This document shows positions 11,600-63,697 of a stretch of DNA of 64,000 nt, one piece after another. The translations under genes and the position numbers were made by a program. Numbering within the stretch: the stretch's first letter is position 1; each line of letters begins with the position of its first letter. This DNA is from Halorhabdus rudnickae. Its GTDB lineage: Archaea; Halobacteriota; Halobacteria; Halobacteriales; Haloarculaceae. Location of the stretch: NCBI RefSeq assembly GCF_900880625.1, contig NZ_CAAHFB010000005.1, forward strand, positions 1-64,000, read 5' to 3'. The notes below the pieces were generated by a model, which worked only from the letters and a program-made list of their open reading frames with translations, ran no database searches and was not told where the DNA came from.

Positions 11600-11893
11600 C
11601 TATCTCGAATAGCTCACGACTGTCAGAAAGAATGCAACTCCTCCGGAAGCTAATACGAAACCACCAAGTCCTGAGAATGCTTCAGAAAGAAATTCTGAGA
11701 CAGCCGTTGTTGTAAACGCCGCTACGATCGTAACCATAGAGAAGAATACAAACCCCGGCCAGAATGGTAACAGTCGCCCGTCTCGACGATGAACCCCTAT
11801 CGAACTGCGTCTCCCTCCGAATATCTCATTAATCCCATATCCGATGAGTACTCCAATCATAGCCGAAATTCCAACCGTCGTGATCGTTGTCAC
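11600..11893 (-). CDS. Small three-helix membrane protein of the ubiquitin-like operon
   Basis: A 97-aa protein, last gene of the ubiquitin-like operon; its ATG overlaps the E1 stop by 4 nt. Three hydrophobic stretches are visible (about residues 3-22, 43-68 and 74-95), separated by a short positively charged loop (GGRRSSIGVHRRDGR). No catalytic motif. Tight coupling suggests it acts with the conjugation enzymes, perhaps as membrane anchor, target or effector; this is inference. Confidence 0.6.
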   Translation of the reverse strand: MTTITTVGISAMIGVLIGYGINEIFGGRRSSIGVHRRDGRLLPFWPGFVFFSMVTIVAAFTTTAVSEFLSEAFSGLGGFVLASGGVAFFLTVVSYSR

Positions 11894-13503
11894 TGCTCAT
11901 CACCTCCGTTCAGGTCTCGACGAATTTTCGCGTACTTTGGATCATTAGAGAGGGTCAGTTGGTGAGTATCGCCGTCAGCTAAGAGTGATTTCATCGGGCA
12001 GCCTGGTTTACAGCTACTAATGCCCTCCTCCATCGACCATGTGCCGGGCATAAACCGCCGAATCCCACGCTGGCCGCCGGCGACACCGAGTACGTAATCC
12101 TGTAGCCGGAGCGTTACCATCCCAGCGACGATGAGATTGACTGCATTTGTACTAGGCTCCCGATCCTCGCCAGTGGTCTCATCAGCACCCTCTGCGCCTT
12201 CATCCAACCCATAGTCCCCAGGCCCCGTCGCGTCGGGATTGTTCATTTCGTCATTAGCAGCCGTCTCGCGCCAGTGACGGGCACAGTTCTGGCATGGCTG
12301 CCCTGGACCTGCGATAGTTGCCTGTGCATAGGCGTTCTCGTCTAGTACCCCACCCGTGTTGTGAAGGTGCGATCCGCCGCTAATTACCGGCACAAGGTGA
12401 GCGTGAGCCATTTCGTCAAGAACTCGGGTGGGCCACTCACCTTCGGCAGCATGAATAACAACATCGCAATCAAGCAGCCGGTCAATAGCGCCGTACTGTA
12501 GTCGGGCTTCAACAACACTTGCTTCGTAGACGTCCACGGAAAATCCGGGTGCAGTCCCACCAAGTTGGGCGAGGCGCTCGGCTATATCGACCTTGGGACG
12601 TCGCGCATCTGCGTCTGCCCGACTCGCACCCTGGGCACGATTAAGATTCGCTGGCTCAACTCTGTCGAAATCAACGACGACGAGTTCACCGATACCCATC
12701 CGAGCGAGGTGCTCAGCGAGAATTGAGCCACCCCCACCAGCGCCGACAAGACCAACACGAAGTGAATTCAACTGCCGCTGTCCATCCTCACCCCACAATT
12801 CAATAGTGCTATCTTGTGTATCCAGTGAGATAGCTGCCGCCGCACCTGCAACGCCATCGGTTTTTTTAGACGTCGGGTATTCACGCAGTGATTCGCCCAC
12901 GACACGTACACAATCCGCGTCGAAAGTCCGGGCTGATGACGGTGAATACGCCGCCTTCCCGACGTCATCAGCCGTATCTGGAGTATCGAACTCGTAGCCG
13001 ATGACTCGCCACTGACGCGAGGTGTCTTTCACGATAGCAATTCCGAGCGGTGCCTCATCTCCAAGACGATTGGCGTCTTCAAAGAGGTCTTTCTCAGCTG
13101 TGTTTAGATCACCTACAGACGGGTTTGGAAAAGCCGTCTCGTCCCCTGTCAGGTTCGGATGGGTGTGAATATATAAAAGTCCAGCTGCGTCGCCAACTTC
13201 CCGGGCGCGAGCGACTGCCTCGTACCGGTAGTCAGCATCGAATTGAACACTCCCACCGTAATTGATGTCGCCATCAGCCGGATCGAGGATGTCGTGTACT
13301 AGAAAAGACACCCGGTCCTGGCCACTACTGCGTGTGATGACACAGATAACGCCTCGTTCCCATTCGTGCTCGGTTCGAGCATCCTCAAAGAGAATACGCT
13401 CAAGTTCGGTCTGCTGTTCCTCAGATAAAGCCAAATGGAACTCGTCCGCAGATTGTAGCAAATAGCTACGGTCCGTAAGCCGGTCTGGACGGTTGGTGGA
13501 CAT
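11890..13503 (-). CDS. JAB peptidase fused to ThiF/E1-like adenylyltransferase
   Basis: A 537-aa fusion from the ATG at 13503; the frame extends further upstream but overlaps the E2 gene. Residues ~20-200 form a JAB/MPN isopeptidase domain with IHTHP (H113, H115) and SVGD (S129, D132), the metal site of JAMM enzymes though with a longer spacer. Residues ~235-500 are a ThiF/E1 domain: nucleotide loop GLVGAGGGGS (251-260), VVDFDRVEPANLNR (276-289), and two cysteine pairs CQNC (404-407) and CKPGC (498-502) likely to bind zinc. Expected to adenylate the ubiquitin-like protein, pass it to the E2-like protein, and trim or remove it. Confidence 0.85.
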   Translation of the reverse strand: MSTNRPDRLTDRSYLLQSADEFHLALSEEQQTELERILFEDARTEHEWERGVICVITRSSGQDRVSFLVHDILDPADGDINYGGSVQFDADYRYEAVARAREVGDAAGLLYIHTHPNLTGDETAFPNPSVGDLNTAEKDLFEDANRLGDEAPLGIAIVKDTSRQWRVIGYEFDTPDTADDVGKAAYSPSSARTFDADCVRVVGESLREYPTSKKTDGVAGAAAAISLDTQDSTIELWGEDGQRQLNSLRVGLVGAGGGGSILAEHLARMGIGELVVVDFDRVEPANLNRAQGASRADADARRPKVDIAERLAQLGGTAPGFSVDVYEASVVEARLQYGAIDRLLDCDVVIHAAEGEWPTRVLDEMAHAHLVPVISGGSHLHNTGGVLDENAYAQATIAGPGQPCQNCARHWRETAANDEMNNPDATGPGDYGLDEGAEGADETTGEDREPSTNAVNLIVAGMVTLRLQDYVLGVAGGQRGIRRFMPGTWSMEEGISSCKPGCPMKSLLADGDTHQLTLSNDPKYAKIRRDLNGGDEQ

Positions 13504-13505
13504 CG

Positions 13506-14042
13506 TTACTGCCCCTCCACTGGCGTACGCAGCACTTGTTTCATCCACGGAACCGCGGCCTGCATCTGGTCGGGACTCCCCTGCTCGTTGATATTCATAT
13601 AGTCCCACCGTCGACTCCAATACAGAACCTGATCGACATCGAGAGCGCGACAAAGTGGTTCCGCGTGATCTCGATCGGTCTGTGTGTTGGTCGGGAGTTG
13701 GCCATCGATGCGTAAAACTGGATCAGTGGCGAATCCGTACTTTTGACCCGCTGGGAACGTGTCGGGTACTCGGATGAACACTTCGGCCCTATCGTGGTTG
13801 TAGTTGGCAAATCGACCAACGTTGACAATGCCCAAGCTAATGAATACAAAGTTACCCCCGCCTGGGTCATCGTCATTGGTGACCGTCACCAACTTCGGAG
13901 TTACTTCCGGGTGGGCCTGAAGCGTCTCAAATCCGTCCTGGAACCGATCTGAACGGTCGCGTAGAAGCTCATCGTGCTGGGAGTAGGTTCGGATGGTAGG
14001 AACCGCGTCAGCGCTCCCAGTTGCAGAGTCGTCCGTCGCCAT
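13506..14042 (-). CDS. Prokaryotic E2/UBC-like conjugating protein
   Basis: A 178-aa protein, 2 nt before the JAB-E1 gene and 3 nt after the ubiquitin-like gene. The middle reads like a UBC fold: a strand with GNFVFISLGIVNVGRF, then AEVFIRVPDTFPAGQKYGF (the proline-rich YPxxxP-type turn), then a histidine, and the only cysteine, C131 in HAEPLCRALD, followed by tryptophans in YWSRRWD. This matches E2 families found with multi-ubiquitin proteins in bacteria. C131 is the candidate catalytic residue. Confidence 0.7.
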   Translation of the reverse strand: MATDDSATGSADAVPTIRTYSQHDELLRDRSDRFQDGFETLQAHPEVTPKLVTVTNDDDPGGGNFVFISLGIVNVGRFANYNHDRAEVFIRVPDTFPAGQKYGFATDPVLRIDGQLPTNTQTDRDHAEPLCRALDVDQVLYWSRRWDYMNINEQGSPDQMQAAVPWMKQVLRTPVEGQ

Positions 14043-16656: not shown

Positions 16657-16772
16657 AGAGCTGAGTCTATTTCAGTCTCACTTACTCTCGTTTTTTGAAA
16701 TATGTTTCATATCTCCATTGATGGGTGAAGGGGTCGCGACGACAGCGAGTTCCGAGTACATCGGCGATGACT

Positions 16773-17190
16773 ATGGCAATTAGAGACGTCTACGGGACTG
16801 GATTCGATGAGGACGTCAAAAACAGATTCGAGTACCAATCAGTGCCCGGAGTGTGACCGCCACGTCACCACAAACGTCAAGGAAACCGTCTTCGAGGACT
16901 GCGGCCTCGTCATCGAAGAGCAACGCCTCGATAATGGGTCGGAGTGGCGAGCGTACGATGAGGACGAGCGGGAACGGACGGGCGCTCCGCTGATAGCAGC
17001 GCGTCACGACCGAGGGCTCTCGACCGAACTCGGGCGCAGAACAGGTGCGAACGGGAACGAACTCTCCGCACAGAAGCGCCGGCGACTCGCCCGGATGCGG
17101 CGCGAACAGACCCGTGGCCGGTGGCAATCGAAGGCCGAACAGAACCTCGCCCCCGGGTTCGGCGGGCCGGTTGGCCTCCAGTTGGACTAG
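16773..17190 (+). pseudogene. Broken transcription factor B (TFB) fragment
   Basis: A decayed copy of the TFB gene that follows. The ATG at 16773 begins a TFB-like leader (MAIRDVYGTGFDEDV), but the frame is lost at an A5 run (about 16817-16821) and the zinc-ribbon part continues in another frame. The ribbon has CPEC but the third ligand is Phe (ETVFEDCG versus ETVCEDCG in the neighbour). The B-finger part (ERTGAPLIAARHDRGLSTELGR) is preserved. The gene stops before the cyclin folds, at the point aligning with NLAHGLSEVS of the intact copy. Confidence 0.75.
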
Positions 17191-17334
17191 ATTCTCGTAG
17201 ATCCACGTAGTGGAGACCCTCATTGGCGGATTAGAACGTGTTGATGCCATCATATTCCCGGTTCGGTTTTTCTGCCCCTGCGATGGGCGAGGGGCTCGAG
17301 ACACACTGAGTCCCTCGTGAATTCGGTGATTCGC

Positions 17335-18261
17335 ATGGCGACCAGCGATAGCTACGACCATCGATTCGACGAAGACGTACCGAGCGGATCAAACACCGGC
17401 TGTCCGGACTGTGGTGGCCAGGTTCGAACGAATTCGATCGAGACAGTCTGTGAGGACTGTGGTCTGGTTCTCCACGAAGAACCGATCGATCATGGGCCGG
17501 AATGGCGATCCTTCGAGGACGACCGAACGAATCCAGAACGCACTGGTGCTCCCCTCACGCCGACGAGGCACGATCGCGGCATTTCGACGGAGATCGGCCG
17601 GAAGACCGACGGAAAGGGCAACGATCTCTCGGGATCGAAGCGCAGGCAACTCGGTCGGTTCCGACGTGAGCACAGTCGAGCGCGTTTCCGTTCGAAGAGC
17701 GAGCGAAATCTGGCCCACGGCCTCTCCGAAGTCAGTCGGATCGTGAGTGCACTCGACGTTTCGAACGTGATCGACGACCAGGCGTGTGATCTCTTCCGGA
17801 GCGCTCAGAGCGAGGACCTGTTTCACGGGCGATCGATCGAGGCGATGGCAGCCGGCAGTGTCTACGCAGCCTGTCGGTGCAATCGGCTTCCGTGGACGCT
17901 CGACGAGGTGAGCGCGGTCGCACGGGTGAACAAGGACCGAGTCGAGAACGCCTATCGGGCGTTGAATCGGGAACTGAGGCTGCCCACGGTCCCGCCGTCA
18001 CCGCAGCAGTACGTGCCTCGGCTGGCGTCAGAACTGGGTATCTCCCAAGAGGTGCGTCAAGAGGCGGAGCGATTGGCGAAGAAGGCGGAGAACCATCGTC
18101 TTGCGAACGGTCGCAATCCCATCGGAGTGGCAGCCGGTTGTCTGTACGAAGCGATTCAGCGAGGTGACGAAAGCGTGACGCAGTGTGCCCTTGGAGAGTG
18201 TGCAGACGTCTCACCGAACACAGTACGTGACCGCTGGCAAGAGCTCCAGCGACTCGAATAG
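17335..18261 (+). CDS. tfb: Transcription initiation factor IIB (TFB)
   Basis: A 308-aa protein from ATG 17335. It has the zinc ribbon CPDCGG...CEDCGLV (about 22-45), the B-finger/linker WRSFEDD...RTGAPLTPTRHDRGISTEIGR, then two cyclin-like repeats (about 120-205 and 215-305) with SIEAMAAGSVYAACR and NPIGVAAGCLYEA. It recruits RNA polymerase to TBP-bound promoters. Haloarchaea carry many TFBs; a divergent copy within an accessory island is likely to serve specific promoters. The leader resembles that of the broken copy upstream, indicating a tandem duplication. Confidence 0.9.
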   Translation: MATSDSYDHRFDEDVPSGSNTGCPDCGGQVRTNSIETVCEDCGLVLHEEPIDHGPEWRSFEDDRTNPERTGAPLTPTRHDRGISTEIGRKTDGKGNDLSGSKRRQLGRFRREHSRARFRSKSERNLAHGLSEVSRIVSALDVSNVIDDQACDLFRSAQSEDLFHGRSIEAMAAGSVYAACRCNRLPWTLDEVSAVARVNKDRVENAYRALNRELRLPTVPPSPQQYVPRLASELGISQEVRQEAERLAKKAENHRLANGRNPIGVAAGCLYEAIQRGDESVTQCALGECADVSPNTVRDRWQELQRLE

Positions 18262-26059: not shown

Positions 26060-28219
26060 TCACTCCTGCGTGATCGTTACGAAGTTGAGCACGAATTCTT
26101 GTGGGAGGGCCCCACCGTGGAGGAACCGGGCATCGGGTAGTCCCTGATTGCGGAACCGCTGAATCGGATCCGCGAGTGCGCTTATTTTCGTGTCGTCATC
26201 GAGATAGCCGAGGTGAGCTTTTTCATCGAGGAGGACACCAGGTGCATCTTCGTCGAGGGTGCTGCCGGCAACCCACCGACGCGTCACTTCCTCAGCCTCG
26301 TCCGGCGGATAGATGTCATCGATATCGACGCTCTGCGGGAGAGAAACGAAGCCGTGATCGGCGAGGATGTATGCCCGATCGAAGCTCTCGTTTCCGAGTT
26401 TCTCACAGATGATCCCGGCAATTGCATCGATCCGATCGCTGAACACGCCCTCGAAATCGGTCAATTCCTCCTCACCAGCCTTGTCGAGATCGTTCCAATA
26501 GAACGCGACACGTGGATTGCTCCACCCCAAGGCATCGTCCTCGCTCTGCATGATGTAACTCCATCCATCGTCCTTCAGCATCTTCTCGCGCTGGTAGTTC
26601 GTGATCTCCCGACCGTTTCGTTCGGGACTCAGCTCCCCATCCTCGAGTTCGATGTTGAAACTGAACTTACTGCCGGGTGTGAGTGCTGCTTTACCGAACT
26701 CGGTGTCCGAGGGGAGCGTACCGACCCAGGTGGTCTCGTCGACCTCGAGGCTGGATAGTTGATTACGGACGGATTCAGCCAGTTCGTGCGCGAGATCGAA
26801 GCGGAGCGCATCGACGACGAACAAGGCCACGCTCTGGCCACTCTGGAGGTGATCTTGTTCCTGGTCGAAAAACTGATGCACGTGGTTTTCACCGACGAAC
26901 GGTGACCCCGCCTCGATCTGGTCGGCGACGAGATCCCCAAGGTCGCTGAGGTAATCGAGGTATCGCGACTCAGTCAGCGACGTGCGCAGGTCGTTCAGGG
27001 TAGCAGTCGCAGGATGCTCTTCAGGGAGGTCATGCTCCGGCTCACCCGAGATGATGAGGTTGAAGACGGCATTATCGATCTGCCAGGTGCCGTCGTCGAT
27101 GTCGCCGTAGAGGTCGACAACGTCGGTCGTATCGCCGCGTTCTTCCCACGTCTCGAGTTCCTGTGCGAGTTTGGCGACCTCGACTGCCTGTTCCCAGACG
27201 TGCGTCCACGGAACGTCACCGTAGGTCTGTTCAAGCCGTTGCTGACGGCGGGAGGCACGAGTTGCACACGTCTCGTAGTCGCCGGCACCGAACGAGCCAG
27301 TCCAGTCGTCCCACAGTTCGTGTTCCAGTGAAGCATCGACCGGACAGTCGGCGATTTCCCACGGATCGTCATACGTGCGCAGGATGTCGTGCCAAAAGCG
27401 AGCGTTCGGATCGAGATACGTCAGGGCCAGCTCTGCTGGACGTTCAGTCTTGCTCAGTACAGCCTGGAGTTTCGGTCTGGAAATTCCGAGGCTGGAACTC
27501 TGTTTGGGCTGGTATGCTGAATCGAGGAGTGACTTCTCAAGCCCTTCGTCGACGAGCCACTCGGCAACGGCCCACCGCCGTGTGCGCTCGACGAGCGTCT
27601 GCTCGTCGGTGACGCCCTCGACGGCTGCGACGCCTTCGTCCACGAGGAGGTCCCGGATCTCGGCCAGTTTGTCGGTTTCCTCGGAGAGGTTCTCGACACC
27701 GTGTTCCAGGACGAACGCCACGGGATCGTCGTGACCATCCAACACGATCTGGGTCTGGAGGCTCTGGAGGTCCGGCAACCCGCCGTCGCCGTTGAGGGCT
27801 TCGAAAAGGATGTCAGCGACTTGCTCGCGTTCGACGCCTTCAGCGTCTCCGTAGGCCGTCCGAACCGTGCCCGCCTGCAAGCGATCGTTCCCGAAACAGC
27901 GGGCCGCGAGTTTGCCGATGTGCGCCTCAACGACACCGCCGGTGTTCTCGACGTCGCGGAACCAATCGACGTCGTCGGTCCGGGCTTGCGGGACGTACCA
28001 GACGGTCGTCTCGCGTGGAGCGTCGGCACGGAGTTCGAGCGGCGTGTGTTCTGCCGCGTGGAAGTCACAGCCGAGGTCACGGCTGATGGGTTCAACGATT
28101 TCTCGGAGGTCACCGCCGTCGTCCCACCAGATGATGACCGGATCGTCGTCGGGAGCCTCCTCGATAGCGTTCTCGATGGTGTCGCGGGCCGCCTGGTGAA
28201 GAGTTTTCGTTGCTGGCAT
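26060..28219 (-). CDS. pglZ: BREX alkaline-phosphatase-fold protein PglZ
   Basis: A 719-aa protein. The C-terminal half has the PglZ phosphatase-like signature: VALFVVDALRFDLAHEL, then TWVGTLPSDTEFGKAALTPG, then YILADHGFVSLP. The N-terminal ~350 residues are helical. PglZ is a defining BREX protein that works with the PglX methyltransferase to methylate host DNA and block phage replication. Its stop lies 5 nt before the helicase ATG. It is separated from pglX by an inserted toxin-antitoxin pair. Confidence 0.88.
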   Translation of the reverse strand: MPATKTLHQAARDTIENAIEEAPDDDPVIIWWDDGGDLREIVEPISRDLGCDFHAAEHTPLELRADAPRETTVWYVPQARTDDVDWFRDVENTGGVVEAHIGKLAARCFGNDRLQAGTVRTAYGDAEGVEREQVADILFEALNGDGGLPDLQSLQTQIVLDGHDDPVAFVLEHGVENLSEETDKLAEIRDLLVDEGVAAVEGVTDEQTLVERTRRWAVAEWLVDEGLEKSLLDSAYQPKQSSSLGISRPKLQAVLSKTERPAELALTYLDPNARFWHDILRTYDDPWEIADCPVDASLEHELWDDWTGSFGAGDYETCATRASRRQQRLEQTYGDVPWTHVWEQAVEVAKLAQELETWEERGDTTDVVDLYGDIDDGTWQIDNAVFNLIISGEPEHDLPEEHPATATLNDLRTSLTESRYLDYLSDLGDLVADQIEAGSPFVGENHVHQFFDQEQDHLQSGQSVALFVVDALRFDLAHELAESVRNQLSSLEVDETTWVGTLPSDTEFGKAALTPGSKFSFNIELEDGELSPERNGREITNYQREKMLKDDGWSYIMQSEDDALGWSNPRVAFYWNDLDKAGEEELTDFEGVFSDRIDAIAGIICEKLGNESFDRAYILADHGFVSLPQSVDIDDIYPPDEAEEVTRRWVAGSTLDEDAPGVLLDEKAHLGYLDDDTKISALADPIQRFRNQGLPDARFLHGGALPQEFVLNFVTITQE

Positions 28220-53903: not shown

Positions 53904-54916
53904 TCTGAGTCCTCCGTGAGTTTAGCTGCGAAGCGATCGAATGCGTCGACATCACCGTCTTCATCTGGGTCCGCGTACAGAACGCCATGCTTGCCGTGTT
54001 CTTCTGGGGCAGTGTCTAGTACTGATTCAGTACTGTCTTCGGGCGCCGAGTCGGACTCCGATTGTTGGTCGTCGCGAGACGTGTTTGACCCGGTCGTCTC
54101 GGAGGGTGTTTCGTGGGTAAATTCTCGGTTCAGTGTGCTCGCTGCTGGTTCGATATTCGGGGGCTGCCGATCCAGTGGGTCGATCTCCTGGAGGGTAGAC
54201 GGGAGTGGTGGAAGGTCGTTGAGGATGTCGTCGTATTCCTCCTGGGTTAGGTCATGTTGTTCAACGATTGTGCCGAGAACTTCGTGGGAGAGTTGAACGT
54301 CAGTAAACCACTGGTCGAGTGTCGGTTGCTCGATGAGTGTGATCTCTTGGGCCTCTGCTACCTCGTGGGCGTCATCGGTGAACGACGAGTTGGAAACGAT
54401 CACGGTCGACGAAGCACCGCGGCCCGTCGCCGGAGTGGTATTCCCCTCTGCGACTGTGTGCACGATGTCACTGCCGCGGGTGGACCCCGGGTCGGTGGGT
54501 GCAGTTTTGATTGCGACGGTCGTGTGCTGGCGGTTCCAGAAGAGATCCACGACGACGTCGTCAACTGTTTCTGGTGTCTGGAAGCTTCCCTCGTAGCGGG
54601 AGAGAGTGGCTCCAAGGATCCGAGCGAAATCATGAGCGTTGAGATATGCTATGTCTGCGGTAGACACAATCCGTGATGGCGAGGTTCGTCGCGGGCCCGT
54701 GTCGGTTGGGGACGACGCTGTCTCAATGTTGTCGGGGAGTTGATCGCGAGCATTCTCGACGAGGGTCGTGATCCGGTCACGGGGCGCGTCGAGTTCGTGC
54801 GTTGCAAAGACATCGACGATTTGTTCAGTTGTAATCGCCTTGTCTTCGATTGCGCGTCGAATGGACTCGGTGATCGATCCTGGTTGATACCACTGAGGAT
54901 GTTGCTGTTGACTCAT
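53900..54916 (-). CDS. Mrr-like protein with degenerate active site
   Basis: A 338-aa protein. Residues ~1-65 are helical and may bind DNA. Residues ~90-215 follow the Mrr restriction-fold pattern: HDFARILGATLSRYEG, VVVDLFWNRQH (D124), VAIKTAP (A135, K137), SSTVIVSNSSFTDDAHEVAEA, ITLIEQPTLDQWF. The E/Q of the E/Q-x-K pair is Ala, so cleavage may be lost and DNA binding kept. The last ~110 residues are acidic and disordered. Coupled by ATGA overlaps to genes on both sides. Confidence 0.65.
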   Translation of the reverse strand: MSQQQHPQWYQPGSITESIRRAIEDKAITTEQIVDVFATHELDAPRDRITTLVENARDQLPDNIETASSPTDTGPRRTSPSRIVSTADIAYLNAHDFARILGATLSRYEGSFQTPETVDDVVVDLFWNRQHTTVAIKTAPTDPGSTRGSDIVHTVAEGNTTPATGRGASSTVIVSNSSFTDDAHEVAEAQEITLIEQPTLDQWFTDVQLSHEVLGTIVEQHDLTQEEYDDILNDLPPLPSTLQEIDPLDRQPPNIEPAASTLNREFTHETPSETTGSNTSRDDQQSESDSAPEDSTESVLDTAPEEHGKHGVLYADPDEDGDVDAFDRFAAKLTEDSE

Positions 54917-56389
54917 GTGAACACCCCACGGAGTCGATCGATGACGCCGACATTTCGCCGATGTACAACCTCGTTAGTCGCTCGATCGACGACGACTATC
55001 TGGTTAGCTTTGAGCAGGTGTTTCCCGTATACGATGAGATACGCGCGGTTCGCTGCGCCGCGAACCGATCGGAACTCGTCTACGAGCTCGTCCGGAATGG
55101 AGTGAGTCGTCTCTCCGATCGAGATGCACGTCTCGCAACGGCCGTCCTCTAATGAGGTCGGCGCGTATCGCTGTTCACAAAGTTCGCAAGTCTCGGCGTG
55201 CACGTCACAGATGGGTTGCTGGCTGATTGGGGCAGTAGTGGTGTGTTCGTCACAAAGCTGCTCGTCGCCGACGACACACGTGTTGAGGTGGTCCGTGCAC
55301 AGCTGTGCTGACGGTTCCTCCGTTTTGCTAGCGCAGTGTGCACAGTAATCCAGGTGGCGCTCGCAGAACAGCTCGCCGTCTTCTGCACAGGGGACTGCGT
55401 GTTCGCTACACCGGGGTTCGCCACATGCGGAACAGGTGATTTGGTCGGATTCACAGACTGGTTCGCCGCAGGCTGTACACGCCTGGGTATGGCTGGCAGC
55501 GAACGGCTGGTCACAGTCAGTACAATGAACTGCGTCTGCTTCACAGACAAGGTCATCGCAGCCGGTGCAATCGAGGAAATGGTCAGCACAGAAGGCGTCC
55601 CCGCAGTCGTGGCACTGCACGATATGGTCGGGGCAATACCCAGTGGCGTCACAGATAGTGCAGTTCGTGATGTCATCCGGACAGGTGACGGAGCCGCAGT
55701 CGCTACATTGGCTCGCATGTGATGGGCAGACCGCGCTGCCACAGGTGTCACAAGTCTGGGCGTCTGTGTCACAGCACGGTTGTTCACAGTGTTCGCATTC
55801 AACGATATCGTCAACACAGAATGTTTCCCCGCAGTGTGGACAGTCGCGAGCGTGGTCGGGGCAGACCGTTGTGTCGCAGGCGGTACAGTCGTTCCGGTGG
55901 GTCGAGCATAATGGGTCGTCGCAGTGATCGCAGACGTCGAGATGGAATGGACAGTAGTCGTCCCCGCAGTGCGGGCACTCGGTTGCATGTGTGACGCAGC
56001 GAGTGTCTCCGCACTCGGCACAGGTCGTTGAGTGTGACGAGCAGTGTTGCTCGCCGCATTCGCTGCACATGGTACTGTGGTCGTCACACGTCCAGTTGTG
56101 GCAGTCTGCGCAGTTCGTGAGATCGTCGTAGCAGAACTGCTCGCCGCAGTCTACACACGTAGTGGCGTGATTGGTGCAGAATTGGTCGCCGCAGTCTACG
56201 CAAGTCTCGACGTGGGCTGGACAGACAATGTCGCCGCAGTCAGTACATTCGGTGGCGTGATCTGAGCCGATTGTGTCATTACAGATGTCGCAGACAACCG
56301 TGTGATCCGTACAGTGCCACCCGTCGCAGTGCGCGCACTCGGCGGCGTGCTCAGTACAGACGGTGTCGCTGCACGTCTCACAAGTTTTT
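54913..56389 (-). pseudogene. Tandem 15-residue zinc-finger repeat protein, 5' end cut by ISH6-type element
   Basis: Open without interruption from the IS end to a stop at 54913; an internal ATG at 56070 could still give 385 aa. From the IS inward about 23 consecutive units of 15 residues follow the rule Cx2Cx4Cx2Hx3 (for example CAECGDTRCVTHATE, CPHCGDDYCPFHLDV), then a variable Cys-rich end and a ~90-residue globular tail (ANRAYLIVYGKHLLKANQIVVVDR). Each unit has a full set of zinc ligands. It likely continued into the membrane-protein fragment on the other side of the IS. No family recognised. Confidence 0.8.
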
Positions 56390-57838
56390 GGTCGTGTCGC
56401 AAAGTCCTCTAGAGTTCAGTAGCAACTGGCTCCCGTGAGGAACGGGTCGCCTCTGGTGTCCAACCTGAGAGGTGACCCATGCACGCCACAATCGACGTGC
56501 GGTTGACTGTTAGCATCGACGACGACAAAACGATACCGCTGGCCGCGCTGGCTGAGTTCATCACTGACCAGAACGTCGAGTCAGTTCTTCTCGAAGGACT
56601 GGTCGAGAGCCTCGACGCGAGCCGCGTCGAGGCGCTCTGTGGCGAGAAACACGCTCACGGCAATGGTGATCAGCGATTCCAACGAGCTGGAACCGATACT
56701 CGCACAGCTGTCACAACCGCCGGTGAGCACGAGTTTTCTCTCCACTACGTCGAGGATACCGACGCTGACCACGACGAAGCCAGCTACTTCCGGCCCGTTG
56801 AAGATGTTCTCAGCTTCGACGGGCAAAACCGCTATCAGCAGGACATAGCCGCCAAGAGTGTCGATCTCGCTACCTCGCTCAGCTATCGTGATGCTGCTGA
56901 CCACGGCGACGGCATCCTCTCGGAGATGCCGTCGCCGACCACTATCAACCGCCGCGCGAGAAAGTACGGCAGTAAGCTCAAGCAGTTCCTTCCCGACTGT
57001 GTCGCTGATACAGACGCTGATGCGGTTATTCCTGACGGCACGAAGTGTCACAGTCAAGACGACGACCGTTCGTACCACTCCGTCCAAGCCACGCTCGGCG
57101 AAGATACTGCAGAGGAGTCACGCTCCTTGCTGGATCTTTCGGTGAACGCTGATTGGGACGAGACAGCAGCTGACCTCAATGAGATCGACGCAGTCACTGA
57201 CGACGCGACAGTCGTCAGTGACGCTGATGACGGCATCGTTACGGCCTTTACCGACGAATACAGCGATCACCAACTCGATCTTGTCCACGTCGGCCGAACG
57301 CTGGACTACAACCTCTGGGACGATGGCGTGTTCTCCTTGGATCGACGGAACGAGATCGTCTCGGAGGTGATCGATGAGGTGTTCCATCTGAAAAATTCGG
57401 TCGCCAAGCACCGTTCAGACGAGGAGTTCGCGGCGATCCGCGAGCGGATCGCGCGAACGACCGAGCGTATCGAGAAGACAGCGTGGCAGTTGGATCAGTA
57501 CGGGTCAGAGAAGGCTGCGGGGTATCTACGGCGGTGGCTGCCGTCGATTGTGACGTTTGCCGAGCAGGCTGTCGAGGGGTTCGAGGTGCCGTGGACCTCG
57601 AACCCCGTCGAACGGCTGATGGGAGAAGTCAGCAAGCGCTGCAAGAACCAGTGGATGCGCTGGACAACGGAGGGATTAGAGGCGATACTCCAGCTTCGGC
57701 TGGTGAAGTACGCCGATCCAGAGTACTACCAGTCGTTCCTTGACGAACTGCTCCAGCGATCGACCAAAACAGCAATGAGCTGTGACCTCTCAATTGAGAG
57801 CACCAGAGGCAAACTCTAGATCGCTTTGCGACGCGACC
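56390..57838 (+). mobile_element. ISH6-type insertion sequence, 1,449 bp
   Basis: Bounded by 27-bp imperfect terminal inverted repeats (56390-56416 and 57812-57838; 23 of 27 match, ends ggtcg...cgacc). It encodes a single transposase. The length agrees with ISH6 elements as I recall them. The 8 nt outside the left end (aagttttt) and right end (aaaaactt) are reverse complements, not direct repeats, so no normal target duplication is seen. It separates two truncated minus-strand gene parts. Confidence 0.85.
56479..57819 (+). CDS. ISH6-family transposase
   Basis: A 446-aa intact transposase. It contains SPTTINRRARKYGSKLKQFLPDC, a DGTKCHSQDDD segment and VPWTSNPVERLMGEVSKRCKNQWMRWT near the C terminus, with Asp and Glu residues suited to a DDE active site. 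The family assignment comes from overall resemblance to the haloarchaeal ISH6 transposase. No frameshift or stop is seen, so the element could still be mobile. Confidence 0.85.
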   Translation: MHATIDVRLTVSIDDDKTIPLAALAEFITDQNVESVLLEGLVESLDASRVEALCGEKHAHGNGDQRFQRAGTDTRTAVTTAGEHEFSLHYVEDTDADHDEASYFRPVEDVLSFDGQNRYQQDIAAKSVDLATSLSYRDAADHGDGILSEMPSPTTINRRARKYGSKLKQFLPDCVADTDADAVIPDGTKCHSQDDDRSYHSVQATLGEDTAEESRSLLDLSVNADWDETAADLNEIDAVTDDATVVSDADDGIVTAFTDEYSDHQLDLVHVGRTLDYNLWDDGVFSLDRRNEIVSEVIDEVFHLKNSVAKHRSDEEFAAIRERIARTTERIEKTAWQLDQYGSEKAAGYLRRWLPSIVTFAEQAVEGFEVPWTSNPVERLMGEVSKRCKNQWMRWTTEGLEAILQLRLVKYADPEYYQSFLDELLQRSTKTAMSCDLSIESTRGKL

Positions 57839-58399
57839 AAAAACTTTGAATGCTTCTTCCGTGAGGAGAACAGAGCTATCGGAGGGTAGAACGCCGGCAG
57901 AGAGCCCATTCGGCTTTTGACCGTATTGTCCCGTAACGACCCGATATTTTATATCTGATACGAAACCGTCTCCGCACATTGAGATCTCTTCGTCATTCAG
58001 GGGACGTGTCGCCATAACTCCCTTCAAAATCCAGCCAGATACTAACAGGGTCCCCCCAATGAGAAGGACTCCAGCGGTGTACTCAGTGAACGACCTCCCG
58101 AGAACAATTAGCCCGCCGGCCATCAACATCATCGTCAGGCCGATCACGATGATCACTATCCGTTCGAGAGCATCACCCATTGACTCTTCTTCTTCAATGA
58201 TCTGCTTGACACCAGATCGGGCGCTCTTCCCCACTTCATACAGGAATCCAAGAGAGTACGTGGTGCCAAAAACGATCGGAACCATCCAAAGTACCACGGC
58301 TACCGGATCCATATTGGACTGAGTTAAAAAGAGGCTGACAAGAAGCACATATACAACAACCCCCACCCCCGTCCCCACTCTCACTGTCCGGGAAGCCAT
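57839..58399 (-). pseudogene. Membrane-domain gene fragment truncated by the ISH6-type element
   Basis: 187 codons from ATG 58399 (an earlier in-frame ATG at 58426 exists) to the IS edge; reading on into the IS gives an unrelated tail. Four hydrophobic helices: VGVVVYVLLVSLFL, AVVLWMVPIVFGTTYSLGFL, IVIIVIGLTMMLMAGGLIVL and TAGVLLIGGTLLVSGWIL. It then becomes soluble (CGDGFVSDIKYRVVTGQYG...LTEEAFKV). Same strand as the zinc-repeat fragment beyond the IS and facing it, so it may be its N-terminal half. Confidence 0.65.
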
Positions 58400-58512
58400 A
58401 CATCTCCGTTCTTGTTCCCGGAACAAAATATCACATGTGATTGATTCAGGTGACAGCTGCTAGTGGGGACCGTCTGGTCTAGCGATCTCCAACCCAACCA
58501 CTACCGAAAGAC

Positions 58513-58520
58513 TTTTTATA
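58513..58520 (+). promoter_or_regulatory. TATA-like box
   Basis: tttttata, 59 nt before ATG 58579; consistent with a short leader that includes the ggagg ribosome site at 58566-58570. Confidence 0.5.
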
Positions 58521-58578
58521 CCATCACTCCACGTTCAAGTGAAGGCAAGAACACACTCAACACATGGAGGAACAAAAT

Positions 58579-59481
58579 ATGACTGTGACCGATACTACTG
58601 AATCTGCAAGTGAGGAACCTGGCGCTCGCCTGAAGCTCGAGAACACCCAGAACAATCTTCGGAAGCTACAGAAGGAGGATCGGACGGTATACCTAAATCT
58701 GGGTAAGGTAGCTGAGCAGGCCGGACTCGAGCACAAGGACAAGGTCGTCTATGACTTCGATGAGGAAATCGGGTCGATAGTCCTCATTGAGGCCGAGAAG
58801 GAAGACGGTGAATGGCCTGATGACGCGAATACCGTCATGACTGACTCTCGTGTCAATCTCCCGTCTTCAGTCCTCTCCCTCCTGGGCATCAACCCGTCCG
58901 AGTACGATCCGATGTTCGACCCCTTGGTCTTCTGGCTTGAGCCGTATCCAGATGAAGAAGGGTCCCTGTCTGCGGTCGAGGTCGATCCGCTTGGATTCGC
59001 CAGTGGGATTCTCGACGAAGATGGCCGTCTCCTTCCCGTCGAAGATCGGAACCCTGACGGAGAGGAAGGCGGCTGGAACCCCTCTGAAGAAGGGTTTCCG
59101 ACGATGGAAACCGATAGCGCTCGCTCAGTCTATGAAGTTGGACTGGGTGAAGACGTCGTGCAGATGGTCGCCGACAGTCGCTCCATCGAATTGGACGAGC
59201 TCTGGGAGACTCTCGAAGAAATCGCCACTCTCGATGAAGCGTTCTTCGACGATCGCGAGCAGGACCCGTCGATTACTGGAGATGGCCGGTCTGTGTTCTT
59301 CCCCACGAGTGGTACCTGGGACGAAATTGCCCGACACCTTGATCTGCCGGAGGATCACGTCGCAGCGGCCAAAATGGCTCACAACAAAGAGGCCGATCTG
59401 CTCGTATCTGAACTCGGGCTGGCGAACTATTTCGAAGTCGTAGACCGATCCCAGCCCGTCGTTGTTCCGGCGGATCCGTGA
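58579..59481 (+). CDS. Unknown 300-aa protein, paralogue of the TFB-fusion tail
   Basis: The ATG at 58579 is preferred over 58564 because ggagg lies 8 nt before it. Residues ~35-130 hold two AbrB/SpoVT-like beta units (VYLNLGKVAEQAGLEHKDKVVYDF and SRVNLPSSVLSLLGINPSEY) followed by PLVFWLEP. Residues ~195-300 (GEDVVQMVADSRSIELDELWETLEEIATL; then SVFFPTSGTWDEIARHLDLPEDHVAAA) run parallel to the end of the 799-aa TFB fusion encoded next. Possibly a DNA-binding or assembly module; function unknown. Confidence 0.6.
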   Translation: MTVTDTTESASEEPGARLKLENTQNNLRKLQKEDRTVYLNLGKVAEQAGLEHKDKVVYDFDEEIGSIVLIEAEKEDGEWPDDANTVMTDSRVNLPSSVLSLLGINPSEYDPMFDPLVFWLEPYPDEEGSLSAVEVDPLGFASGILDEDGRLLPVEDRNPDGEEGGWNPSEEGFPTMETDSARSVYEVGLGEDVVQMVADSRSIELDELWETLEEIATLDEAFFDDREQDPSITGDGRSVFFPTSGTWDEIARHLDLPEDHVAAAKMAHNKEADLLVSELGLANYFEVVDRSQPVVVPADP

Positions 59482-59796
59482 CGAGTTGAGGGCAATTGCC
59501 CGTTTCTCCTGGATCTGACAGTGAAGGCGATTCGGTTTGCTTCCAGCTTGGCATAGCTCAACATCGGCGTCGTGTTTTGGGTGTTCATCCTGCTAACCGG
59601 AGCCTTGTCTGGTCCTTACGTACTCGATGAGAACGCGCTTGGTGACACTGACTACCGGAAATCGTAATCTTAGATTCCTACCCCTGCCGGGCTGCCCCTT
59701 CTTCATGTGAGCTTCGGACTGTCCTTAGACAGCGTTCCCCCCCACAACCTAATTTAACCCGTAAGAATTAAGTATAAGACGTTCCGACGCATACAC
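59482..59796. promoter_or_regulatory. Promoter region of the TFB fusion with a coding remnant
   Basis: A TATA-like ttaagtataa (59768-59777) lies about 24 nt before ATG 59797, the spacing of leaderless haloarchaeal transcripts. Between about 59557 and 59667 a 36-codon frame (NIGVVFWVFILLTGALSGPYVLDE and on, ending at 59667) looks like the end of a lost membrane protein. Confidence 0.5.
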
Positions 59797-62196
59797 ATGT
59801 CGACTGATGGCCAGAACGAGGGCGTGGGGTCCCTCTACGGACGGTCGGATGGTGCGCCTAACAGCGCCGACGGGTTGAGCGGCCCGTCGGTTTCCGGAGC
59901 TCCGACTGAAGCGTATCGGGGCAATTCGATGGACGGCTCGGGGTGTCCGGAGTGCGGCGGCGACCTCCGCGAATCTGAGAACGAGCTCGTCTGCGAAGCG
60001 TGCGGGCTAGTTGTCGGTGATCAACGGATTCGCCGTGGGCCTGACTGGCGATCGTTCGACGATGAGGCCAACACGGAACAGAAGAAACGCGTCGGTGCGC
60101 CGATGACTGTCGCCAGGCACGACAAGGGGCTCTCGACGACGTTCGATACCTCCACTGACGGTACGGGCTCGACGCTTTCGTCGAGCAAGAAGCGACGCTT
60201 CAAGCGCTACAAACGCTGGCACAAGCAGGCCCAGACGGATCAAAAACGAGGCCAGAACCGGATTGCTGGCTTCATGGAGATCCGACGTCTCGTCTCGACC
60301 ATCGATCTCCCCAAGAGTGTTCGCGATCGCGCCTGTGAACTGTTCACCCAGGCTCATGAGGACGATCTCCTGATTGGAGGTTCTATCGAACAGTACGCTG
60401 CGGCATCTCTCTACGCGGCGTGTCGTGTAATGGATGTCCCCCGAACACAGGAAGAGGTCGCTAAGCAGACGACGGAAAGTCTCAGCGACGTTCGGACCGC
60501 CTACCTGAAGATGGCTCGCGAGATCGGCCTTGGGGCAGCCCCTCCGGACCCGGTGGAGTTCGTTCCCCGAGTATTCTCTGAGATCGACACCGAGTTGACC
60601 GCTGACGAGCGGAAGGAGGTGCTCTCGCTCGTCAAAGAGGCGCGGGAAAAAACGGTTTCACAGGGCCGCAATCCGTTTTCGTTCGCTGCCAGCGCGGCCT
60701 ATGTGGTGTCCAATCGGCTGACTCAGCGCGAACTCGCGGAGGTTTCCAATTCAACTCCGAACACCATTCGGGAGTCTCGCCGCGATATCGAGGCGATGAT
60801 CGAGGAGCGCGAAAAGGGACCGACCGAGGGGGAGGAAGAAAAGGATGGAAACCACTCGACCGAGCTCGAAGGCCAGAAGTTTGCGGATCCTGTCATCCGG
60901 TCTCCGGTAGAGGAGATGGAGGACCTCGACTCGAACAGGATCTTGGTTTCGTCCCAGACGTCATCTCGAGGTACTCCCCTTGCCGATGGTGGTCAGGTGG
61001 TCGTTCAGAAACCCAACCAGTCGACGAGTCAAGAAAAGGAGTTACCCATGCATAGTTCACAACCTTTGGTAGAGTCAATGTCTGAGTCTGATCCTGCTTC
61101 CACAGATGAAGAAGAGTGTGTCGTTTGTGGTGAGGCCGAATCTCGCCTCTTCAACATCCACGGTGATTGGTATTGTCGGGAATGCGGTTACACTCTCTTA
61201 TACTCGCTACCGCCTGAACAGTGGGAGTCTCTCCGGGAAGTAGAGGAACGCATCGAGGATGGTTACTCTTCGGAGCAGGCTCGTGAGGATGTCGATTCCG
61301 AAATGTACCATCCGCCGTACCCTGGTAGTCACAAACGGCGCCGGTTCAATCAGTTATCGGTATCTCGGTCCGAAGGATATCCGCAATTCAACGTGAATAT
61401 CACCCGCCCGCTGCGAGTCTCACCAGTCGATCCTGGGGACAAAGTCCAGTTCCTCGCGACGACTGACCCGCATGGTATCCCCGTCTTGGATCTCTACTAC
61501 GTCGACGAAGACGAAGACACCTCTTCGACCCCCAATGTTCGGACCATTTCCGGCCAAGAGACTGCCGCTCACATCAATATTCCCGAGTCTATCGCACGGA
61601 GGCTATTGGAATCCAAGTTTTCTGTCCCGCTTGAGAAATACGATGGAACTGATTCGCTAATTTTCTGGCCCCAAGCAATGCCAGACCGGATTCGATTGTA
61701 TGCTGTGGCCTTCGAGTCCGAATGGGAAGCCATGCGTCGCGAATTCGAGGAGGGTAGTGAAGCCGAATCTGGTACGGACAGGTCGGAGGAATCTACGGAG
61801 AGCGAAGAGTCCCAGGAAGATACCATCGCACCCGCAGGCATGGAAATCTTCCAGACAGAACACATCGTCGACGCAGTCTCCGAGAGGAGTGTCACCGTAG
61901 ACGATCTGGTCGATGCCCTTGAGGCGACTCAAGAGGTCGCAGAGCAGAAATCGGAACTCCTCGAGGAACAGAGCACGATGGAACCAGTAGCGCATCAGGA
62001 CCAGGTCGTCTACGTGGTCCCCTCTTCGTTCTGGGGGGAGGATCCGTTGAGTGCCCTTCCGGAAGATCCTGGTCTACGTGAGGCGGTCAGGCAAGTCCAC
62101 TACTACACGGCTGACCAGATGGACGACGACGTCGAGGCTGATCTTTCTACTCAGCTTCTCGCAATGGATGCCTTCGTCGTTAAAAAGACAGAATAG
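59797..62196 (+). CDS. TFB fused to a zinc-finger and AbrB-like C-terminal extension
   Basis: A 799-aa protein, more than twice a normal TFB. Residues 1-45 are flexible; the zinc ribbon CPECGG...CEACGLV spans 50-71; the B-finger WRSFDDE...RVGAPMTVARHDKGLSTTF follows; cyclin repeats lie at about 155-240 and 250-335. After an acidic linker comes a second zinc finger (CVVCGE...YCRECG, about 440-467), then a beta-rich region (about 525-665: DPGDKVQF, AAHINIPESIARRLLES, DSLIFWPQ). A final domain (690-799) resembles the neighbouring 300-aa protein. It could direct RNA polymerase to special promoters while binding extra DNA or protein. Confidence 0.85.
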   Translation: MSTDGQNEGVGSLYGRSDGAPNSADGLSGPSVSGAPTEAYRGNSMDGSGCPECGGDLRESENELVCEACGLVVGDQRIRRGPDWRSFDDEANTEQKKRVGAPMTVARHDKGLSTTFDTSTDGTGSTLSSSKKRRFKRYKRWHKQAQTDQKRGQNRIAGFMEIRRLVSTIDLPKSVRDRACELFTQAHEDDLLIGGSIEQYAAASLYAACRVMDVPRTQEEVAKQTTESLSDVRTAYLKMAREIGLGAAPPDPVEFVPRVFSEIDTELTADERKEVLSLVKEAREKTVSQGRNPFSFAASAAYVVSNRLTQRELAEVSNSTPNTIRESRRDIEAMIEEREKGPTEGEEEKDGNHSTELEGQKFADPVIRSPVEEMEDLDSNRILVSSQTSSRGTPLADGGQVVVQKPNQSTSQEKELPMHSSQPLVESMSESDPASTDEEECVVCGEAESRLFNIHGDWYCRECGYTLLYSLPPEQWESLREVEERIEDGYSSEQAREDVDSEMYHPPYPGSHKRRRFNQLSVSRSEGYPQFNVNITRPLRVSPVDPGDKVQFLATTDPHGIPVLDLYYVDEDEDTSSTPNVRTISGQETAAHINIPESIARRLLESKFSVPLEKYDGTDSLIFWPQAMPDRIRLYAVAFESEWEAMRREFEEGSEAESGTDRSEESTESEESQEDTIAPAGMEIFQTEHIVDAVSERSVTVDDLVDALEATQEVAEQKSELLEEQSTMEPVAHQDQVVYVVPSSFWGEDPLSALPEDPGLREAVRQVHYYTADQMDDDVEADLSTQLLAMDAFVVKKTE

Positions 62197-62575: not shown

Positions 62576-63697
62576 ATGCAACGTAGGCATATGATGGGTG
62601 GTCCAGGTCTACATCGGAGGCAGTGGCGTGTGATCCTTGCGGTGGGGGTCGCGATTCTAATCACTCTATCTGGGTGTGGTCAGTATGTTCCGGGGACGTA
62701 TACAGAAGAGAAGTCCTTCGAGGATATCATGTCTGGCCCGGACATTAATGTCTCACTGTCGGGGGATCAGAATTCTGGCTCCACTCCCAAAGCACTCGAA
62801 GATCTTCAGATCCATCATATCGATGTGGGTGACGGGTCGTCGACATTGGTGATAGCACCGAATGGAGAGACGATGTTGATCGACTCAGGTCCCCGAGAGG
62901 CAAACGGATCTGAGGTTATCAGCTACTTAGAGGAGGTTAACGTCAGTCGTATCGATCATCTCGTGGCGACAAACCCGGATCCCAGCCATATCGGCGGCCA
63001 CGCTGCGGTGATTCACCACTTCGAAACAAATCATGACGGCATCGGTCAAGCATATGGATCAGGTGTTTCCACGAGCTCCGAAACGTACACTGAATACACC
63101 AGCGCCCTCAGGGAACACGATCTTGCCCGATACAACGTTGCTTCAGGTTACCAGCTACCTTTCGGCGCCGAAACACGGGTTGCAGTAATCAACCCGCCCA
63201 GGACCGGCACTGACAGCAATGGACCAGAGACGAATAGTGTGGCCCTCTCCATCCACTACGACGACTTCACGTACCTGATCACGAGTGATGCAGGACGGCA
63301 GGCAGAACGACGAATGGCCAACCAGTACCCCGATCAGATAAACGCCGACGTGTACCAGGTCGGCAATCATGGAGAGTCTACGAGCTCGACTGATCTGTTC
63401 TTCGAGATGGTCGCCCCTTCAGCCACGATCATTTCTAGCGGTCAGAACGGCGAGCATGGCTCTCCCTCGAGAGAGGTAATGCAGCGTCTCGAATCGACTG
63501 GCGTCGAAACGTATTGGACTGCTACCCACGGCGATACAGTGATCATATCGAACGGCACCGATTTTCAAGTACGAACACAGATGAATCATACAACGGATGC
63601 AGGAGAAATCGGGTCGATCTCGATTGGAGCAACAGAGATGGTCGTCCCTGCGGGACAGGTGGATACTCGCCGACCCCACACCGAACTTGGCCTATGA
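62576..63697 (+). CDS. ComEC-type metallo-beta-lactamase-fold lipoprotein, degenerate metal site
   Basis: A 373-aa protein from ATG 62576 (62591 and 62594 also possible). The N terminus is an exported lipoprotein signal: twin Arg (HRRQW), a hydrophobic stretch, then lipobox LSGC with Cys34. The mature part follows the ComEC/Rec2 hydrolase layout: IHHIDVGDGSSTLVIAP, MLIDSGP, YLITSDAG, VYQVGNHGES, ATIISSGQNGEHGSPS. The zinc motif is altered: TNPDPSHIGG replaces THxHxDHIGG, and NHG replaces HHG. It probably lies on the outer face of the membrane as a non-catalytic or changed enzyme. Confidence 0.7.
   Translation: MQRRHMMGGPGLHRRQWRVILAVGVAILITLSGCGQYVPGTYTEEKSFEDIMSGPDINVSLSGDQNSGSTPKALEDLQIHHIDVGDGSSTLVIAPNGETMLIDSGPREANGSEVISYLEEVNVSRIDHLVATNPDPSHIGGHAAVIHHFETNHDGIGQAYGSGVSTSSETYTEYTSALREHDLARYNVASGYQLPFGAETRVAVINPPRTGTDSNGPETNSVALSIHYDDFTYLITSDAGRQAERRMANQYPDQINADVYQVGNHGESTSSTDLFFEMVAPSATIISSGQNGEHGSPSREVMQRLESTGVETYWTATHGDTVIISNGTDFQVRTQMNHTTDAGEIGSISIGATEMVVPAGQVDTRRPHTELGL

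Follow-up and report, generated by a model that had tools for sequence, protein, structure and literature searches.

The window analysed here, 64 kb in all, comprises bases 1-64000 of a 295-kb contig of Halorhabdus rudnickae, one of six in the assembly. It holds two adjacent genes on the same strand, which we call P1 and P2. P2 encodes a transcription factor B (TFB) with a long C-terminal extension, and P1 encodes a stand-alone relative of that extension. Their features are as follows.

58513..58520, + strand: candidate TATA box of P1, TTTTTATA, picked out by inspection
58579..59481, + strand: P1 (300 aa), stand-alone member of a putative family with an MraZ-like part and a C-terminal domain
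58648..59010, + strand: predicted tandem AbrB/MraZ-like half-barrels of P1 (P0001 residues 29-149), from AlphaFold elements and fold matches
59119..59469, + strand: predicted C-terminal helical domain of P1 (P0001 residues 186-302), of an undescribed family widespread in the order
59768..59777, + strand: candidate TATA box of P2, TTAAGTATAA, picked out by inspection
59797..62196, + strand: P2, the 799-aa TFB fusion, a single open frame
59944..60057, + strand: N-terminal zinc ribbon of the TFB, with the beginning of its reader region (PF08271, E 4.7e-12)
60259..60816, + strand: first and second cyclin repeats of the TFB, helix-turn-helix included (PF00382, two stretches)
60817..61086, + strand: linker from TFB core to extension, low-complexity, acidic and Ser-rich (net charge -11 over 90 aa)
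61117..61194, + strand: second zinc-ribbon-like motif, CVVC-x16-CREC (residues 441-466), read from the sequence
61339..61713, + strand: predicted tandem AbrB/MraZ-like half-barrels of P2 (residues 515-639), from the AlphaFold model and family profile
61855..62184, + strand: predicted C-terminal helical domain of P2 (residues 687-796), from the profile and AlphaFold model

The longest open reading frame of P1 opens at 58564, and the preliminary description of this DNA had placed the start at 58579. The ATG at 58579 appears to be the better start, because a GGAGG (58566-58570) sits 8 nt ahead of it. A 15-nt direct repeat, GGAACAAAATATSAC, occurs before and across this start, at 58420-58434 and 58569-58583 (149 bp apart). 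The TATA-like box of P2 stands about 25 nt upstream of the ATG at 59797, a spacing that fits leaderless transcription in haloarchaea. Between the two genes lies a 315-bp gap, which suggests that P1 and P2 are transcribed separately; given this gap and the TATA-like box just ahead of P2, a P1-P2 operon is less likely.

The TFB identity of the 799-aa protein, already proposed in the preliminary description, was confirmed by PF08271, by PF00382 (E 5.5e-21 over two stretches) and by alignment with the other TFBs of the host. The TFB core occupies residues of about 45 to 340 and spans the zinc ribbon and both cyclin repeats. Aligned with the host TFBs, P2 conserves all four zinc-ribbon cysteines, has a B-reader/linker (RVGAP...HDKGLST) and keeps the TIR of the last helix-turn-helix. 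P2 scored 219 bits against NF001658, under that model's own cut-off of 384, and its second cyclin repeat is diverged enough to have been missed at E 0.001 in a genome-wide TFB search. The recognition helix reads TIRESRRD in P2 versus TIRNRYHE, with TIRNRY in most chromosomal TFBs of the host. Codon-position GC is coding-like in every part of P2 and the frame is intact over 799 codons; judged from its sequence, the core looks complete, with nothing broken. A second zinc finger had also been claimed for the fusion, and a CxxC...CxxC (441-466) is indeed visible there; it gave no significant Pfam match, just weak sub-threshold ribbons, and the stretch has no relative among the 391 genomes of the class.

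At least nine TFBs, P2 included, are encoded in the host cell. The open frames of its other full-length TFBs run to 306-378 aa versus 812 for P2. Longer TFB frames elsewhere in the genus (573-626 aa) were not accepted as fusions, as they extend upstream in GC-rich DNA and their starts are unchecked, nor was a frame of 733 aa (G000:C1:1440544) whose TFIIB match was borderline and which the TFB profile did not confirm. Within the window, a truncated TFB remnant (16771-17187, + strand; a 139-aa frame with one ribbon Cys changed to Phe) immediately precedes an intact TFB (17317-18261).

DNA of the window matches haloarchaeal plasmids, transfer-complex genes among them. An ISH6-family transposon at 56375-57841, which shares 94-95% identity with copies in Haloarcula, borders a block that is 92.7% identical to Halorhabdus tiamatea pHTIA, and a Cys-rich open reading frame at 54913-56070 corresponds to part of a longer annotated pHTIA gene (3288 bp). 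By these matches the junction just upstream of P1 appears to be mosaic. Farther off, a large BREX-like block (23148-46057, - strand) contains a PglZ-domain protein at 26060-28219, with helicase-, methyltransferase- and ATPase-like frames around it by inspection. A 587-aa protein (11890-13653, - strand) carries a ThiF (E1-like) domain, with a JAB-like stretch ahead of it on visual inspection, and downstream of P2 a metallo-beta-lactamase-fold protein with a lipoprotein-like start is encoded at 62576-63697 (+ strand).

The preliminary description held that the tail of the TFB fusion has a stand-alone homologue next door, with a similarity of ~110 residues. Direct BLASTP of P1 against P2 returned one match (P1 93-130 with P2 589-630, E 0.016), and the matched piece is the AbrB-like strand region, not the far C-terminus; we set this comparison aside as an inadequate test of tail similarity. 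A bridging protein, G447:C5, matched both in separate searches (P2 tail, E 1.6e-8; P1, E 2.6e-8), and with a C-terminal-domain profile made without P2 the P2 tail scored 31.5 bits, where 2000 shuffles reached 10.7 at most. The homology was borne out by a full-length profile lacking both proteins, which scored P2 at 61 bits and P1 at 51 bits, compared with 7.2 for the best of 3000 shuffles; no other open reading frame of the window rose above shuffles. Aligned by profile as had been proposed, the two tails are significantly similar. The claimed length did not hold: the profile covers residues 31-301 of P1 and about 515-796 of P2, or about 280 aa. P1 and the P2 tail are co-linear over their entire common length, with a similarity that we consider remote and real, and on these profile scores they fit an undescribed haloarchaeal family of MraZ-like plus helical-domain proteins. 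No Pfam, NCBIfam or PHROG model matched P1 or the P2 tail.

Structure prediction, with the chains modelled singly, agreed with this picture. AlphaFold gave a pLDDT of 76 for P1 and 78 for P2 431-799, and in both models two beta-beta-alpha-beta-beta units lead into helices, a small beta hairpin, further helices and a final strand, the P1 model being without one short strand of the second half-barrel. The AbrB-like strands that had been noticed ahead of the common tail are predicted in both proteins, in the same element order. The fold is supported chiefly by this agreement between separately made models, though their alignments share sequences. In fold comparison the top five matches of P1 were all MraZ, at Z 6.4-7.1 against 3.5 for the next unrelated entry, and MraZ was likewise the best match of the P2 tail, at Z 6.3 and 5.2 against 3.4; these values are under the tool's safe level of 8. 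Foldseek alone returned nothing significant for either model, a sequence search of the PDB returned just a designed protein (E 0.04), and the weak fold matches of the C-terminal domain (aIF2-alpha, gyrase and CRP, Z about 3) were set aside. A DXXXR motif is expected in each half of MraZ. It is absent from P1 and P2, and no MraZ or AbrB Pfam family was among their matches at E<=1, so neither protein was filed as MraZ.

Regulators of the MraZ and AbrB types are oligomeric, and MraZ binds promoter DNA. DNA binding by the MraZ/AbrB-like module described here seems doubtful because the module is acidic and without the MraZ DXXXR motif. Its net charge is -7 in P2, -17 in P1 and -17 to -28 in the chromosomal relatives. 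Of the 31 members compared, P2 has the module with the lowest acidity, and KRRRF stands ahead of it; by charge, DNA binding is possible for P2 and doubtful for P1 and the chromosomal relatives.

A four-row profile of the family found matches in 158 of the 391 genomes of the class. About 30 of these are full-length and free-standing, and the others mostly cover just the helical domain; in a sample of the phylum all matches fell in Halobacteriales. The full-length gene has common flanks in 17 of 19 neighbourhoods, serine hydroxymethyltransferase-like (glyA-like) and FolD-like (folD-like) by names read from translations. These free-standing proteins of about 310 aa between glyA-like and folD-like genes (L052-L076; L095-L113) form an undescribed family, and no TFB lies within about 9.5 kb of the 19 chromosomal members. 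A plasmid-like member on a 130-kb contig (G447, L040), which encodes a TFB 2.3 kb away, is the only other member so placed; a second plasmid-like member (G166) has no TFB in the segment that was read. Elsewhere the helical domain is joined to a LuxR/Sigma70-r4-type helix-turn-helix (L046:4617-5240), a partner that links it to transcription control, and it is present in proteins of about 520 aa with a GIY-YIG-like stretch by inspection (L045:871-2460 and L084:3834-5378). With partners as varied as MraZ-like, helix-turn-helix, GIY-YIG-like and TFB parts, this undescribed domain family deserves a name.

Exactly two copies of the domain exist in the 3.36-Mb genome of H. rudnickae, P1 and the P2 tail, and they are adjacent and on the same strand. 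Two sites placed at random in 3.36 Mb would be 3 kb or less apart with a chance of about 0.2%. The tree puts P1 and the P2 tail on very long branches (3-5; 3.1 and over 4), neither joining them as recent sisters nor firmly setting them apart; we regard the two as paralogues in a wide sense and not as the product of a recent duplication. The suggestion that the factor evolved together with its partner was not upheld, given these deep separate branches and the 19 chromosomal relatives with no TFB nearby. GC3 along P2 is 0.70 in the TFB part, about 0.5 after the linker and 0.51-0.63 over the tail, a drop expected from joining two genes of different history, and Met427 (MSESDPASTDEEEC) could be the former start of the second gene. 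No relative of the fused form came up among the genomes, plasmids and phages screened, which sample part of known diversity outside metagenomes. Queries with P1 and the P2 tail found no close relatives in IMG/VR, GTDB contigs, plasmids or phages, and searches of the open-access literature turned up no account of a TFB joined to a module of this kind.

Our preferred reading, which we hold tentatively and with somewhat less than even confidence, is that the plasmid encodes in P2 an alternative TFB, one to which a regulatory or oligomerization module is fused and which P1 modulates. The P2 core, with its zinc ribbon, B-reader and two cyclin repeats, would most likely join TBP and RNA polymerase as archaeal TFBs do, and the flexible acidic linker would tie it to a module made of the second zinc ribbon, the double half-barrel and the helical domain. 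P1 is a free relative of this module without TFB. The MraZ/AbrB-like and helical domains may self-associate or pair with P1, which could thereby tune the site or timing of initiation by the fused TFB, probably on plasmid promoters. P2 has the features of a TFB core, P1 and P2 have a common two-part architecture, and they are adjacent as the sole two copies in the genome; PIC function, association and promoter choice are inferred. These features argue for this reading, together with the profile homology, the matching models with MraZ as their top fold match, the helix-turn-helix joined to the helical domain in L046, the TFB 2.3 kb from the G447 member and the precedent of TFB-RF1 (PMC5937170); against it, the chromosomal relatives live without a TFB nearby and the fusion was seen once. 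P1 and the P2 tail need not still recognize each other, because they are highly diverged (branches 3-5).

The P2 module might instead bind specific DNA and tether the TFB to private promoters, with P1 competing or cooperating at the same sites. The fold match to MraZ, a promoter-DNA binder, points this way, as do the low acidity of the P2 module (net -7) and the KRRRF ahead of it. TFB-RF1 of Pyrococcus furiosus exerts its control through recruitment of TFB (PMC5937170), which shows that such recruitment is a working route of activation. We nevertheless think this self-recruitment unlikely, since P1 and P2 lack DXXXR, the P1 module has a net charge of -17, the Z scores of 5-7 are under the tool's safe level, and no operator-like repeats or inverted repeats occur within 400 bp upstream of P2. 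P1 could also act as a negative partner, occupying or titrating the P2 tail like an anti-factor and so holding a harmful extra TFB off; it is a stand-alone copy of the regulatory part without TFB, and by inspection its Shine-Dalgarno-like start, versus the apparently leaderless P2, would allow separate regulation. The free-standing relatives without TFB must have another role, however, and this option strikes us as improbable.

The TFB might, on the other hand, have read through into an unrelated regulator by chance on a mosaic plasmid, the halves being uncoupled and P1 a second member of a mobile family. The GC3 step in P2 (0.70 in the TFB part, 0.51-0.63 in the tail), the plausible old start at Met427, the adjoining ISH6 copy and homology break, and the finding of the fused form in one genome only among those searched are all consistent with such an accident. 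It sits less well with an intact frame of 799 codons that is coding-like in composition throughout and with the chance of about 0.2% that the sole two copies in 3.36 Mb would fall within 3 kb, and we rate it unlikely. That the fusion is an assembly or sequencing artefact joining two genes in one frame, a thought also raised by its presence in one genome only, is very improbable indeed, as it lies on a 295-kb contig of a six-contig assembly and shows no stop or frame change, with GC3 codon-like throughout.

The private promoter set suggested in the preliminary description would be compatible with the diverged recognition helix and the at least nine TFBs in the cell. A further step, which we consider somewhat unlikely, is that a TFB fused to a gene-specific module and accompanied by a free partner makes a plasmid-borne, sigma-factor-like two-protein switch that redirects archaeal RNA polymerase to selected promoters. 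Promoter choice among the many haloarchaeal TFBs is a standing question, and a fused module permits domain-deletion tests. What is new at this locus would be a known kind of protein, TFB, in a new form, together with one undescribed domain family.

Among known systems, P1 and the P2 tail resemble MraZ/AbrB (SpoVT-AbrB) proteins in the predicted tandem half-barrel, the best fold match in both models, but differ in having no Pfam-level match or DXXXR, in being strongly acidic and in carrying a helical domain after the barrels, an arrangement that to our knowledge does not occur in MraZ. The glyA-folD family of haloarchaeal group f3 (L052-L076) has the whole architecture of P1 (E 1e-31 to 1e-44), whereas its members are chromosomal, occupy a conserved place with no TFB nearby and are unstudied. 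TFB-RF1 (PMC5937170) likewise couples a regulator to TFB, but as a separate protein that recruits it, while the candidate regulator of P2 is fused; the likeness is one of idea. The haloarchaeal TFB paralogues, such as TfbA-G of Halobacterium NRC-1 (PMC4230888, PMC2121645), share with P2 the zinc ribbon, B-reader and two cyclin repeats with helix-turn-helix, and they differ in their contribution to fitness under stress (PMC4230888). H. rudnickae, like Halobacterium NRC-1 with its TfbA-G set, carries many TFBs, and P2 stands apart from the others in its host by more than twice the length, about 460 extra residues and a diverged second repeat and recognition helix.
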